From a bacterium (GTDB taxonomy: Bacteria > Calditrichota > Calditrichia > RBG-13-44-9 > J042), in NCBI GenBank assembly GCA_015485355.1, contig WFTQ01000061.1, positions 1 through 40,327 on the forward strand: a stretch of DNA of 40,327 bases, given 5' to 3'. Made by a program: the position numbers and the translations under genes. Positions 27,873-32,770 of this stretch are shown piece by piece; positions within the stretch are counted from its first letter, which is position 1; every line of letters begins with the position of its first letter. A model generated the notes under the pieces. It did no database searches, was not told the origin of the DNA, and saw only the letters and a list, made by a program, of their open reading frames with translations.

Positions 27873-28514
27873 CTAATAATATGAGACTTTGAAGAAAATA
27901 GTCAATTCTCCTTCGATACCAAAAGGGCTTAAATCCAGCTTAAATTTTCCACGTCCTTCGTACAATTCCGGTACTTTTATGCTAATGGATTTCTTCTGTT
28001 CCACGCGGCCTGTTCCTCCACAATGAAAGCACCGGAAAGGGAAACTGACTCCCCGCCCCCCACAGGAAGGACAATCGGTATGGATGGGAACATCCAGGGT
28101 CAAATTTCCCCCGGTTTTAGCCTCTTCCGGTGTCAGGACAATCTCCACGGCCAGTTCTTCCGGCAGGTAATATTGGGGTCGACGCCCCGCCGGCCGTTTC
28201 CGGAATCCGCCTTCCCGACGCAAGGATTCTACTTCTTTCAATAGTATTTCCAGGTCGGAAAATAAACGCCCCAGCGTGCCTTCCATGGGGTAATAACGGC
28301 GATGTTCTTGCCGGCGGATTTTCTCGTCGTATACCCGACGCTTTTCTCTGCTGCTTAACACCTCGAACGCTTCCTGCACCTCCAGAAAGCGCTCCACATC
28401 CGAGGTTTCCCCCATGTCCGGGTGATACTTCCGTACCAGTTCCCGGTAAGCCTTCTTAATCTCTTCCAACGAGGCATCCCGGCGCACACCCAGTATGGCG
28501 TAGTAATTCTTCAT
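27873..28514 (-). CDS. DnaJ-like J-domain protein with half a zinc finger
   Basis: A 213-residue J-domain protein. The J domain occupies residues 1-70, with the HPD motif at 31-33, so it can stimulate the ATPase of DnaK. It lacks a Gly/Phe-rich region. Only two of the four CxxCxGxG repeats of DnaJ are present (Cys148, Cys151, Cys162 and Cys165), and the C-terminal substrate-binding part is a single short domain. Full DnaJ has about 375 residues. I chose ATG 28514, with AAAGGAGGG six bases upstream. It follows grpE, so it is probably the J-protein partner of this DnaK; a full DnaJ may exist elsewhere. Confidence 0.9.
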   Translation of the reverse strand: MKNYYAILGVRRDASLEEIKKAYRELVRKYHPDMGETSDVERFLEVQEAFEVLSSREKRRVYDEKIRRQEHRRYYPMEGTLGRLFSDLEILLKEVESLRREGGFRKRPAGRRPQYYLPEELAVEIVLTPEEAKTGGNLTLDVPIHTDCPSCGGRGVSFPFRCFHCGGTGRVEQKKSISIKVPELYEGRGKFKLDLSPFGIEGELTIFFKVSYY

Positions 28515-28568
28515 AAAGGTCCCTCCTTTCACCTTTATGAAGAGCCTCTTTTCCCGCCTCCACGGGAT

Positions 28569-29195
28569 CTATCCTTCGGCGCTATATTTATTTTCTTCCT
28601 GGCTGTATTTTCCAACCACCACCTTACTGGGTCGTAGCAATTTTTCCTTCAGCCGATAACCCTCCTGATAGACTTCGACGACTTTTTCATGTTCTTCCTT
28701 CTGCTTTGTCGGCCGGGTCATCAGGGCCTCATGAATTTCGGGATTGAAGGTTTCACCCAGCGACTCGATCTTTTCCAGACCCTCTTTTTCCAATATCGTC
28801 TTCAGTTTTTCGTAAATGATTCGAGCGCCTTCTCGCATACTCTGTTCATTCGCACCTGCTGCGGCGTTATCCATCATGATTTTAAAATCGTCCAGTACCG
28901 GCAGCAATTTCTTGAAAATCTCACCTTTTATAAAATCGGCCAATTCCAATTGTTCCCTCTCAACCCGTCGCTTGTAATTTTGGAACTCCGCCAGCAGGCG
29001 CAGATGTTTTTCCTCCAGTTCTTCGATTTTCTTCTCATAATCTTTTCGTATTTCTTCCGTTTCAGGGGTTTTGTCTGTCAGGGCGGTGGGCTGTCCCGGT
29101 GCGTCTGCCCGCCCCTGGTTTTCCACAAACTCGACATTCACCTGTTTCGCCTGATCGGACGCCTGTTTGGATCTGTTTCTATCCTCATTGACCAT
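28569..29195 (-). CDS. grpE: Nucleotide exchange factor GrpE
   Basis: GrpE releases ADP from DnaK. The 208-residue protein has a disordered N-terminal stretch (1-45), then the long coiled-coil helix (KKIEELEEKHLRLLAEFQNYKRR, about 55-78), the four-helix bundle, and the C-terminal beta domain. That domain has FNPEIHEALM followed by VVEVYQEGYRLKEKLLRPSKVVV. All are characteristic. It stands between dnaK and the J-domain gene on the same strand, 86 bp after dnaK, with a strong stem-loop in that gap. Confidence 0.96.
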   Translation of the reverse strand: MVNEDRNRSKQASDQAKQVNVEFVENQGRADAPGQPTALTDKTPETEEIRKDYEKKIEELEEKHLRLLAEFQNYKRRVEREQLELADFIKGEIFKKLLPVLDDFKIMMDNAAAGANEQSMREGARIIYEKLKTILEKEGLEKIESLGETFNPEIHEALMTRPTKQKEEHEKVVEVYQEGYRLKEKLLRPSKVVVGKYSQEENKYSAEG

Positions 29196-29281: not shown

Positions 29282-31198
29282 TTATTTTTCTTTATTATCG
29301 TCGTCGACCACTTCAAAGTCGGCTTCTTCCACGTTTTCGCCGCCGCCGGGGGATGATCCCTGTGCCGTGGAACCGGCGGTAGCGGTCTGCTCCGAGGTCG
29401 CCTGCTGATAGAGCTGCGACGAAGCTTCGTTCCAGACCTGGGTCAGGGCATCGGTCGCAGAGCGGATTTCGCTGATGTTATCGGTTTTCATCGCCTCCTT
29501 CACCCGATTGACCGCCGCTTCCACTTTATTTTTCGTGGCGGCATCCAGCTTATCGCCATATTCTTTAAGATTCTTTTCGGTCTGATAGATCAATGCATCG
29601 GCAGCGTTTCGGGCATCAATCAATTCCCGGCGTTTTCGGTCCTCGGCCGCATGTTCTTTGGCATCCTTGATCATGCGTTCGATTTCTTCCTCGGTCAAAC
29701 CACTGCTGGCCTCGATGCGGATCTTTTGTTCCTTACCGGTGGCCAGATCTTTGGCCGATACATGCAAGATTCCATTGGCATCAATATCAAACGTGACTTC
29801 TATCTTGGGCACGCCCCGTGGTGCAGGGGGAATGCCATCCAGGATAAATCGTCCCAGGGTACGATTGTCCCTCGCCAGTTCTCGTTCCCCCTGTAACACG
29901 TGGATTTCCACCTGGGTCTGGTTATCGGCGGCGGTGGTAAAGATTTCGCTTTTGCGCGTGGGGATGGTGGTATTGCGCTCAATCAATTTGGTAAATACAC
30001 CACCCAGAGTCTCGATTCCCAGGGAAAGGGGGGTCACATCCAGCAATAACACATCCTTCACATCTCCGGCCAACACCCCAGCCTGAATGGCAGCCCCAAT
30101 GGCCACCACTTCGTCGGGATTGATTCCCTTATGCGGCTCTTTGCCAAAAAATTCTTTTACCAGCTGTTGCACCCGTGGAATCCGGGTCGATCCACCAACC
30201 AGGATCACTTCATCGATATCTGATGGATTCAGACCCGCATCTTTCAAAGCCATTTCGCAGGGTCCCAGCGTTTTCTGCAACAGGTCCTCGATCAACTGTT
30301 CGAATTTGGCGCGAGTAATGGTCATTTGTAAATGCTTGGGGCCGCTGGCATCGGCGGTAATAAAGGGCAGATTGATGTCGGTCTGAAGCGTGCTGCTCAG
30401 TTCAATCTTGGCTTTTTCGGCGGCTTCCCGCAATCGTTGCAGGGCCATGGGATCCTTACGCAGATCGATACCATGGTCTTTCTGAAATTCATCGGCAATG
30501 TAATCCACCAACCGCTGGTCGAAGTTGTCTCCACCCAGATGCGTGTCTCCATTGGTGGCTTTCACTTCGAATACACCATCCCCGATTTCGAGAATGGAGA
30601 TATCAAATGTCCCTCCACCCAGGTCATAAACCGCAATTTTTTCGTTTTTCTTTTTATCCAAACCGTAAGCCAGGGAAGCGGCGGTAGGCTCGTTAATAAT
30701 GCGCAATACGTTTAATCCCGCAATTTCGCCGGCTTCCTTGGTAGCCTTTCTCTGACTGTCGTTAAAATAAGCCGGTACGGTAATCACCGCGTCGGTCACT
30801 TTTTCCCCCAGATAATCCTCCGCCGTTTGCTTCATCTTCTGCAGGATCATGGCCGAAATTTCCTGAGGGGTATAATCTTTCCCGTTCACCTCCACCATCG
30901 CCAGATCGTTGCGACCCCGCTTCACTTTATAGGGCACCATCTTAATCTCTTCCGGAACCTCATTATAACGGCGTCCCATAAAGCGCTTGATGGAGTAGAC
31001 TGTGTTTTCGGGATTGGTAATCATTTGCCGCTTTGCCGGCGCCCCCACTAAAATCTCCCCCGATTTGGTAAAACCGACTACCGACGGTGTGGTCCGGCTT
31101 CCCTCTGCATTGGGAATAACAATGGGCTCGCCGCCTTCCATCACCGCCACTACGGAGTTCGTCGTCCCCAGATCGATACCAATGATTTTTTTGGCCAT
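29282..31198 (-). CDS. dnaK: Chaperone protein DnaK (Hsp70)
   Basis: A 638-residue Hsp70 of normal length. It has [18 protein letters not shown] at the start, the phosphate-2 loop ([19 protein letters not shown]), the adenosine motif ([14 protein letters not shown]), the linker [18 protein letters not shown] and a C-terminal lid. It ends in an acidic tail ([15 protein letters not shown]) after a Gly/Ser-rich stretch. ATG 31198 has AAAGGAGG upstream. It is preceded, 26 bp away, by the ferritin-like gene and followed by grpE and a DnaJ-like gene. Confidence 0.98.
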
Positions 31199-31224
31199 AT
31201 TATCAACCTCCTTTTCTTCAAATT

Positions 31225-31707
31225 TTAAACGATTGTATTCACTCTCATAATAACCCGTTCGATGGCTTCCATGTTGGCATGATGCTCCGCGTCCAACTCC
31301 CGGAGCACCCGGGCATGATGCCAGAAACCATAATCTTCGGCCCAGTTGGCCTCTTCCATTAAACGTTCTCCCAGCTCCTTTTCCACCACCAAGAGCTGAG
31401 TGAATTCCCCATCCGGTTTGGCCTGATAGGTCGATTCAATATGCCGGTCCACCTCACCACCCAACTCCACAATCAATCCGGCAATTTTCTGCGCATGGTC
31501 GTGTTCTTTCCGGGCAATCGATAACACCTCCTTTCTCAAATGCTCATAGGGCAACAACCGCGCCTCGGCTTCCAATTCCATGGCCAGAATCTTTTCATCG
31601 TTATAATTGCGCTGCAATTTCCGGATCAGTTCCTGCCGATACTCCTTTTTACCTTTCGCATCCACTTGTAACCGCTCGATCCATCGGTTAACGGTTCGCA
31701 GGATCAT
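31225..31707 (-). CDS. Ferritin-like four-helix protein in the chaperone operon
   Basis: A 160-residue all-helical protein with the layout of ferritin-like diiron proteins. The first core helix has Glu44, Glu46 and Glu48 ([16 protein letters not shown]), the second an E-x2-H pair (Glu68 and His71). The third has Glu109-Glu114, and the fourth is Glu/His rich ([15 protein letters not shown], 137-151). These could form a diiron site like rubrerythrin or bacterioferritin, but the exact ligand set is uncertain, and no rubredoxin domain is present. It stands between hsp20 and dnaK, 26 bp before dnaK, and ATG 31707 follows AAGGGG. A role in iron or oxidative stress during heat shock is inferred from position. 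Confidence 0.75.
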
Positions 31708-31722
31708 GACTTTCCCCTTATT

Positions 31723-32109
31723 TTATTGAATTCGAATCTCTTTCACGCGTTCGTCGGCTTTCTTCTTCAGGGAAATTTCCAGAATGCCCTGGCGGTATCG
31801 AGCAGAGATCGAATCGGTATCAATGTCTTCCCCCAGTTCAAAGATGCGTTCGTAGCGGGCGTTTTTGCTTTCCCGTAACAGGAACTTTTGTACATTTTCA
31901 TAGTCTTTCTTTTCGCCCTCGATGTGTAACTGCCCATCTTTTACGTAAACTTTTAAACTGTCCCGCTTCACATTGGGCATTTCCAGCAACAACACGAACT
32001 TATCCGGCATTTCGTAAATATCCGTGGCGGGACGATAGGCGACTTTTTTCACCTCTTCAACGCCAGAGACGTCGGCCGGCGCATTGTTTACCCTGACTTG
32101 TTCGACCAT
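31723..32109 (-). CDS. Small heat-shock protein (Hsp20), second copy
   Basis: A 128-residue alpha-crystallin-domain chaperone. The domain spans about 30-128, with PATDIYEMPDKFVLLLEMPNV, then KDGQLHIEGEK, and the closing ARYRQGILEISLKKK, which forms the usual final strand. The tail ends in VKEIRIQ, an I-x-I type motif for oligomer contacts. I chose ATG 32109 because AGGAGG lies eight bases upstream; the GTG at 32118 is inside that site. It follows the first hsp20 gene by 32 bp, and its sequence is clearly diverged from that one, so the pair may form mixed oligomers. Confidence 0.94.
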   Translation of the reverse strand: MVEQVRVNNAPADVSGVEEVKKVAYRPATDIYEMPDKFVLLLEMPNVKRDSLKVYVKDGQLHIEGEKKDYENVQKFLLRESKNARYERIFELGEDIDTDSISARYRQGILEISLKKKADERVKEIRIQ

Positions 32110-32141
32110 TGTTTTCACCTCCTTTTTAATCGATAGTCACG

Positions 32142-32594
32142 TTATTGAATTTTTACATCAATTTTTTTCGGTCGCGTTTCTGCCCTTTTATCGATGACAA
32201 TGAGAAGAATACCATCTTCGTAGCGCGCCTTGATTGTTTCGAGATCGGCATCTTGGGGCAAGGGCAGGGTCCTCTGGAATTTCCCATAGGGCAACTCTTC
32301 CCGTATTTTCTGACAATTCTCCGAAAACCGGGGTTCTTTCCGTTCTCCGGAAAGATAGAGCGTTCCGTCTTTAACCATTAATTTGATATCCGCCTTATCC
32401 ACACCCGGAATTTCCACGAAATAGGTATAATTCTGATCGTTCTCCACGATATCGACCACCGGATGCATTGCTCTGCTGGCCAACTGCACATCCCCGCTAA
32501 ATACACTATTGAGCAGTTCGTTTAACTGTTGACGAAATTCGTTAAACTCCTTTAAAAAGTCCGGTCCCCATTGAGGGAATCCTCGTTCCACCAT
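32142..32594 (-). CDS. Small heat-shock protein (Hsp20), first copy
   Basis: A 150-residue alpha-crystallin-type chaperone with an N-terminal amphipathic region (1-45: FLKEFNEFRQQLNELLNSVFSG) and the domain at about 46-150 (HPVVDIVENDQNYTYFVEIPG, VKDGTLYLSGERK, ARYEDGILLIVIDK). The C-terminus ends IDVKIQ. These ATP-independent holdases keep unfolding proteins soluble for DnaK. ATG 32594 has AAAAGGAGG upstream. It is the first gene of the operon that continues with a second hsp20, the ferritin-like gene, dnaK, grpE and a DnaJ-like gene. Confidence 0.94.
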   Translation of the reverse strand: MVERGFPQWGPDFLKEFNEFRQQLNELLNSVFSGDVQLASRAMHPVVDIVENDQNYTYFVEIPGVDKADIKLMVKDGTLYLSGERKEPRFSENCQKIREELPYGKFQRTLPLPQDADLETIKARYEDGILLIVIDKRAETRPKKIDVKIQ

Positions 32595-32633
32595 TCTACC
32601 ACCTCCTTTTTTCCTTTCCGCACGATTTTAATT

Positions 32634-32648
32634 ACAAATTTGATGCCA
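32634..32648 (-). promoter_or_regulatory. Sigma-54-like element upstream of the hsp20 operon
   Basis: The minus strand reads TGGCATCAAATTTGT, again with GG at -24 and TTG at -12, very like the element before tatA. It lies 40 bases before the ATG of the first hsp20. The spacing fits a start about 28 bases upstream of that ATG. The AT-rich flank could make this a chance match. No CIRCE-type hrcA operator was seen. Confidence 0.3.
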
Positions 32649-32737
32649 AGCCGGGGGAATTTAGCTAACTACAATTAAAACAAGCGATTATAATAATTGC
32701 TTCCGTCCGCGGGATGGTCGCGTGTTCATCACGAAAA

Positions 32738-32770
32738 TGTCACCCTGCCATTTATTATGCCAGGGTGACA
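32738..32770 (-). terminator. Terminator after pyrC
   Basis: On the minus strand the stem TGTCACCCTG and its complement CAGGGTGACA (ten pairs) surround a 13-base loop and are followed by TTTT. It lies about 40 bases past the pyrC stop and separates the pyr operon from the hsp20 operon. Confidence 0.8.

Follow-up and report, generated by a model that had tools for sequence, protein, structure and literature searches.

The DnaK–ClpB–Hsp20 network is often taken as a closed set of parts. The dnaK operon of Thermus also encodes a small lineage-specific protein, DafA, which serves in the assembly of DnaK with DnaJ. A second group of described systems is provided by the ferritin-like proteins, whose canonical diiron ligands occupy six positions: a Glu of helix A, an ExxH motif of helix B, a Glu of helix C, and a second ExxH motif of helix D. 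One ferritin-like protein, that of the Bacillus anthracis sigma-B operon (PDB 2qqy), is linked to a stress operon by its PDB molecule name, an operon that is presumably a sigma-factor operon and not a chaperone operon. According to the Balon paper (PMC10901736), the neighbors of Balon genes include Hsp20, DnaK, and DnaJ. Here, a ferritin-like protein (FLP) is described that is encoded by a conserved extra gene of a chaperone operon and is a candidate co-factor of this network.

The FLP gene lies in the window, the whole stretch of 40,327 nucleotides of a Calditrichota contig (WFTQ01000061.1) that was analyzed. On the minus strand, the genes run in the order pyrR–pyrB–pyrC, hsp20, hsp20, FLP, dnaK, grpE, dnaJ-like, and csrA; the pyr genes and csrA are named from their translations, and the chaperones by Pfam (HSP20 twice, HSP70, GrpE, and DnaJ). 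The operon opens with the hsp20 gene of HspA (150 aa, 32142..32594), which is spaced by 23 bp from that of HspB (131 aa, 31723..32118). After 15 bp (31708–31722) follows FLP (160 aa, 31225..31707), an open reading frame that starts with ATG, and 26 bp (31199–31224) separate it from dnaK (638 aa, 29282..31198), an arrangement that agrees with the original prediction of a gene 26 bp before dnaK and just after two hsp20 genes. Next come grpE (28569..29195) and a short dnaJ-like gene (219 aa, 27873..28532), in the product of which Pfam recognizes a J domain and, weakly, the zinc finger, but not DnaJ_C. In several relatives of the order, no match to this short gene is found at the same place. Compared with a genome of the same genus (G001), FLP is 82% identical, with pN 0.116 and pS 0.77, similar to its hsp20 neighbors; since pS is saturated, no ratio is given. 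Judged from these values, the FLP gene is under purifying selection, and a pseudogene or spurious open reading frame was rejected on the same constraint. No close paralogue of FLP was found in its own genome, where the second match reaches only E 0.097.

Upstream of the first hsp20 gene, a pattern search located a sigma-54-type −24/−12 promoter-like site, TTGGCATCAAATTTGTA (minus strand, 32633..32649), in a genome in which an rpoN gene is present. The motif TTGGCAY-N5-TTGT (TGGCAY-N5-TTGT in two) is found upstream of the operon in all 12 genomes of the order that were read (of 16), and its position holds whether the leading gene is hsp20, FLP, or dnaK. The exact pattern TTGGCAYN5TTGYW occurs nine times in the window's own genome, compared to 0 times in a reversed control, and three of the nine sites precede hsp20 genes, namely those of this operon and two further ones. 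In the usual sigma-54 promoter, the −12 element has GC; the spacing found here fits sigma-54, and GT is present in eight of the nine sites, with this operon reading TTGT and not TTGC. Sigma-54 control of chaperone genes has been reported for Bacteroidota and Planctomycetota (PMC12316311) and is therefore not new as such. An inverted repeat read in the sequence, GTCACCCTG...CAGGGTGAC (minus strand, 32739..32769), likely ends the pyrC transcript, in which case the pyr genes and the chaperone operon would be distinct transcription units. Two other modes of control were considered and rejected: no CIRCE repressor site is present in the window, and a scan for a housekeeping sigma-70 promoter did no better than on shuffles.

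An AF2 model of FLP, computed from nine sequences of the window's order, has a mean pLDDT of 88.4 and a pTM of 0.79 and is composed of four helices (residues 2–50, 55–81, 102–125, and 129–159). Its top fold matches in the PDB (Foldseek, VIA-align) are bacterioferritins, ferritins, and Dps, and it overlays on bacterioferritin 1nf4_H with a VIA-align Z of 19.1 and an rmsd of 2.0 over 143 residues. For helical bundles, a Z above ~13 is needed to exceed the common arrangement, and the values for FLP and for the divergent FLP of locus L039 are both above that. The latter retains two of six ligands and is modeled with the same fold (pLDDT 85.4; Z 18.6 and rmsd 1.8 over 138 residues to 3hiu_D). In its predicted structure, FLP is thus a four-helix bundle of the ferritin type, with the fold of the ferritin-like superfamily, and the four-helix protein that had been proposed is supported by the model. 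Sequence profiles of known families respond weakly to the window's FLP: both Pfam matches, Rubrerythrin (19.6 bits, cutoff 22.8) and Ferritin (17.8 bits, cutoff 24.5), are subthreshold, and in NCBIfam, including the PA2169 family and encapsulin cargo, no family is matched up to an E of 1. One Thermus-like FLP exceeds the cutoff of Rubrerythrin (PF02915) with 28.4 bits. None of the 160 residues of the window's FLP is a cysteine, and the C-terminal rubredoxin-like FeS4 domain of classical rubrerythrin is therefore absent.

Within the window's order, FLP is present in 11 of 16 genomes. In all 10 Calditrichota loci whose contig continues, dnaK follows immediately after FLP, at a distance of 4–34 bp between script-called open reading frames; at the remaining locus, L010, 61 bp of contig are left past FLP. 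The survey of dnaK neighborhoods that the original prediction had called for thus finds the FLP setting kept in relatives, not absent in all of them. Two, one, or no hsp20 copies lie between pyrC and FLP, so that the pairing of FLP with dnaK is what stays constant. Where the order lacks FLP, in five genomes (G005, G006, G010, G011, and G013), the setting of dnaK is unchanged, with pyrC seen in four of them and outside the stretch read for G013, and DnaK therefore does not need FLP. The match found in G011 is a canonical paralogue. Of the phylum's 24 other genomes, 0 have FLP, G025 matching only by a canonical paralogue, and a phylum-wide trait was rejected on this count; in the 13 genomes outside the order that were read, some with short flanks, the surroundings of dnaK differ.

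In a DnaK tree from which G009 was left out, the FLP-lacking label changes three times, and DnaK branches are longer in some of the lineages without FLP. A residue of DnaK that would mark the loss of FLP was looked for, and D327E alone was found in all five FLP-lacking genomes of the order; it is uninformative because five outgroup genomes, which are also without FLP, keep D. No convincing change in DnaK was found upon FLP loss, which counts against the function by protein contacts favored below.

In addition to Calditrichota, a second group of FLPs was traced from a weak match to two genomes of high GC content and is present in 43 of the 111 genomes of their phylum. The ClpB of one Thermus-like genome is near-identical to PDB 1qvr, the ClpB of Thermus thermophilus, and from this near-identity we infer that the phylum is Deinococcota. 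FLP would hence also adjoin clpB in bacteria closely related to a laboratory thermophile, T. thermophilus. All 28 Thermus-type loci read clpB–FLP–Balon–hsp20, and the other 15 Deinococcota-type genomes have FLP–Balon–hsp20 (n = 11), FLP with hsp20 and clpB (n = 3), or FLP–Balon without hsp20 (n = 1). The gene after FLP in the Thermus-like loci matches baeRF10, with the MSMEG_1130 hibernation-factor model below its cutoff. In the Thermus-type genomes (L100–L127), FLP usually overlaps the start of this Balon-type gene by 4 bp, and the two genes are likely to be translationally coupled. A third lineage is represented by G071, which is alone in its phylum and has, in this order, the C-terminal part of clpB, dnaJ, and FLP. 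In a further phylum, the FLPs of G136 (L177:6676–7104) and G510 (L221) have no chaperone neighbor in the flanks read.

A second ferritin-like gene was also observed a few bases after clpB in G407–G409 (L130:7904–8338, L131:7573–8007, and L132:9147–9581). In G407 (L130), this gene keeps all six ligands, and the link may therefore be to oxidative stress in general.

Chaperone linkage was scored for DnaK, DnaJ, GrpE, ClpB, or Hsp20 genes with one threshold throughout. Of the 57 FLP loci, 53 have a chaperone gene at a distance of 3 kb or less, a figure that stands for about three lineages because related genomes do not count independently; of 40 other ferritin-like loci, 0 do. These controls have flanks of unequal length, leave out G150, do not count L188 (which gave no match), and omit L089 and L130–L132, ferritin-like loci near chaperones inside Thermus-like chaperone clusters. 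Judged from the omitted loci, chaperones and ferritin-like proteins may be tied more broadly in Thermus-like genomes. By lineage, the linkage is observed in 10 of 11 Calditrichota loci, 42 of 43 Deinococcota-type loci, and one of three other FLP loci; it is missing at L010 (contig end), L144, L177, and L221. Within 6.5 kb, one of the 40 controls is near a chaperone gene. This sole case, L195 (G382), is a different ferritin-like protein located 3.8 kb from dnaK. A chance juxtaposition of FLP and chaperone genes was rejected on the synteny within the order and the linkage in other lineages. In a tree of 55 proteins, a branch with support 98/88 sets the 33 FLPs apart from canonical ferritin-like proteins as one group, and the Calditrichota (100/97) and Deinococcota-type (99/98) subgroups are recovered; the long branches of G391, G071, and G136 leave their own places in the tree unsure. 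Taken as part of the interpretation given below, FLPs could well constitute a branch within the ferritin-like superfamily that is linked to chaperones and for which no description was found; in a search of open-license papers, none on FLP or its neighborhood was recognized.

The diiron ligand positions were set by alignment to 11 canonical paralogues, each with six of six ligands, and not by coordinates. At these positions, the window's FLP has E38, E68, H71, E109, H142, and N145, which amounts to four of six ligands. The Glu of helix A is kept (E38, codon 31594..31596, minus strand, as are all codons given here), and so is the ExxH motif of helix B (E68-H-D-H71, 31495..31506), which as a pair is kept only among the window's near relatives. 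The helix C position (E109, 31381..31383) is acidic in 11 of 11 Calditrichota FLPs. Helix D has HxxN (H142-x-x-N145, 31273..31284) where the canonical paralogues have ExxH, with H142 at the Glu position. In the order of the six positions, ligands are kept in 7, 3, 4, 11, 0, and 5 of the 11 Calditrichota FLPs and in 20, 19, 20, 20, 20, and 0 of 20 Deinococcota-type FLPs, the latter being 20 of the 43 Thermus-like proteins and carrying an uncertainty of one or two positions in the alignment of helix C. All 20 tabulated Thermus-like FLPs have Asn in place of the helix D His and keep at least four ligand positions, and 19 keep five. The G071 protein has one of six ligands, and that of G136 five of six by position. 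By these counts from the alignment, neither main branch has a complete canonical six-ligand diiron center; the loss is mild in the Thermus-like and strong in the Calditrichota branch. The plausible metal site that the original prediction had looked for is therefore found in part: E38, E68, H71, and E109 remain, whereas the helix D Glu and His are gone (H142 and N145).

Position, fold, and selection are conserved while the metal center erodes, and a function via protein contacts, dedicated to stress chaperones, is suggested by this combination. At a rough probability of 0.47, we favor FLP as a dedicated member of the stress-chaperone operon that would act mainly by protein contacts and not as an iron store or ferroxidase. 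The retention of at least four ligands in Thermus-like FLPs, as if metal still mattered there, speaks against this reading, as do the ferritin-like genes directly after clpB in G407–G409, the five genomes of the order with dnaK but no FLP, and the FLPs of G136 and G510 that have no chaperone neighbor in the flanks read. The original prediction had offered iron sequestration, peroxide detoxification, or a new type of co-chaperone; its ferritin fold and chaperone-operon membership stand, the latter more generally than claimed, and since the canonical diiron site is incomplete, the iron or peroxide role is weakened and the co-chaperone role favored.

The chief alternative is a residual role with metal or peroxide, for which the case is strongest in the Thermus-like branch, in which five of six ligands are kept. 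FLP would then still be a metal protein, with a reduced mononuclear or altered dinuclear site, built from E38, E68, H71, E109, and perhaps H142, that would bind iron or another metal and remove Fe(II), peroxide, or O2 during chaperone repair, a role that is somewhat unlikely. Among solved structures, bacterioferritins, Dps, and sulerythrin are nearest in sequence profile and fold, and E38, E68, H71, and E109 align to canonical ligands, with H142 in place of the helix D Glu; all but the helix D His are kept in 19 of 20 Thermus-like FLPs, and the retention of the same four residues makes this role a serious one for the window's close relatives as well. In contrast, all 11 Calditrichota FLPs lack the helix D Glu and 8 of them also the helix B Glu, and the proteins of G009, G007, and G071 have lost most ligands, yet their chaperone linkage stays, as does the fold (modeled for G009 only).

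Another reading, that FLP is co-regulated with the chaperones because stress calls for both at once, with neither physical nor functional contact between them, is improbable. The differing partners of each lineage (dnaK; clpB, Balon, and hsp20; clpB and dnaJ) and the loss of FLP alone from intact operons would fit such a protein, but FLP adjoins dnaK or clpB with gaps that are mostly below 35 bp, overlaps the Balon-type gene in most Thermus-type genomes, and shows a linkage that other ferritin-like stress genes do not (0/40). Ferritin-like diiron sites can serve as sensors in other proteins, and operon position would suit a redox or temperature sensor that adjusts the chaperone machinery or its own operon, but this is very improbable for FLP, in which Pfam finds no DNA-binding or signaling domain, cysteine is lacking from the window's protein, and the ligands are not conserved.

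As a protein dedicated to the chaperones, FLP would be made together with Hsp20 and DnaK from the sigma-54-type promoter and might function as an adaptor or holdase, keeping damaged proteins or chaperones workable for the DnaK machine and, elsewhere, for the ClpB machine. A broader proposal, which we regard as doubtful, is that FLPs represent a new class of Hsp70/Hsp100 co-factor, in which a ferritin scaffold without ferroxidase serves DnaK–ClpB–Hsp20 and, in Thermus-like bacteria, ribosome hibernation, across at least three phyla. The comparisons suggest that, in several unrelated bacteria, a metal-storage fold may have been put to new use in assisting the machinery of protein folding during stress; if true, the fold of an iron protein has become a part of protein quality control.

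Similar to bacterioferritin, ferritin, and Dps (1nf4, 9qq4, and 8w1d, PA4880), FLP has a four-helix fold, with a weak profile match to these proteins; it differs from them in lacking the full six-ligand center and in having about 20 extra N-terminal residues. Rubrerythrin/sulerythrin (PF02915) is the best Pfam match of the window's FLP, below cutoff, and differs from it in that FLP has no cysteine and an incomplete set of diiron ligands. With respect to Balon, the word ferritin occurs 0 times in the searched text of PMC10901736, and the flanks read around the 11 Calditrichota FLPs contain no Balon-type match up to a distance of 3 kb. Like FLP, 2qqy (profile E 8.1e-6, Z 18.4) is a ferritin-like protein tied to a stress operon; unlike FLP, it is titled a diiron-carboxylate protein in its entry. 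FLP also resembles DafA in being small, lineage-specific, and encoded in a dnaK operon.
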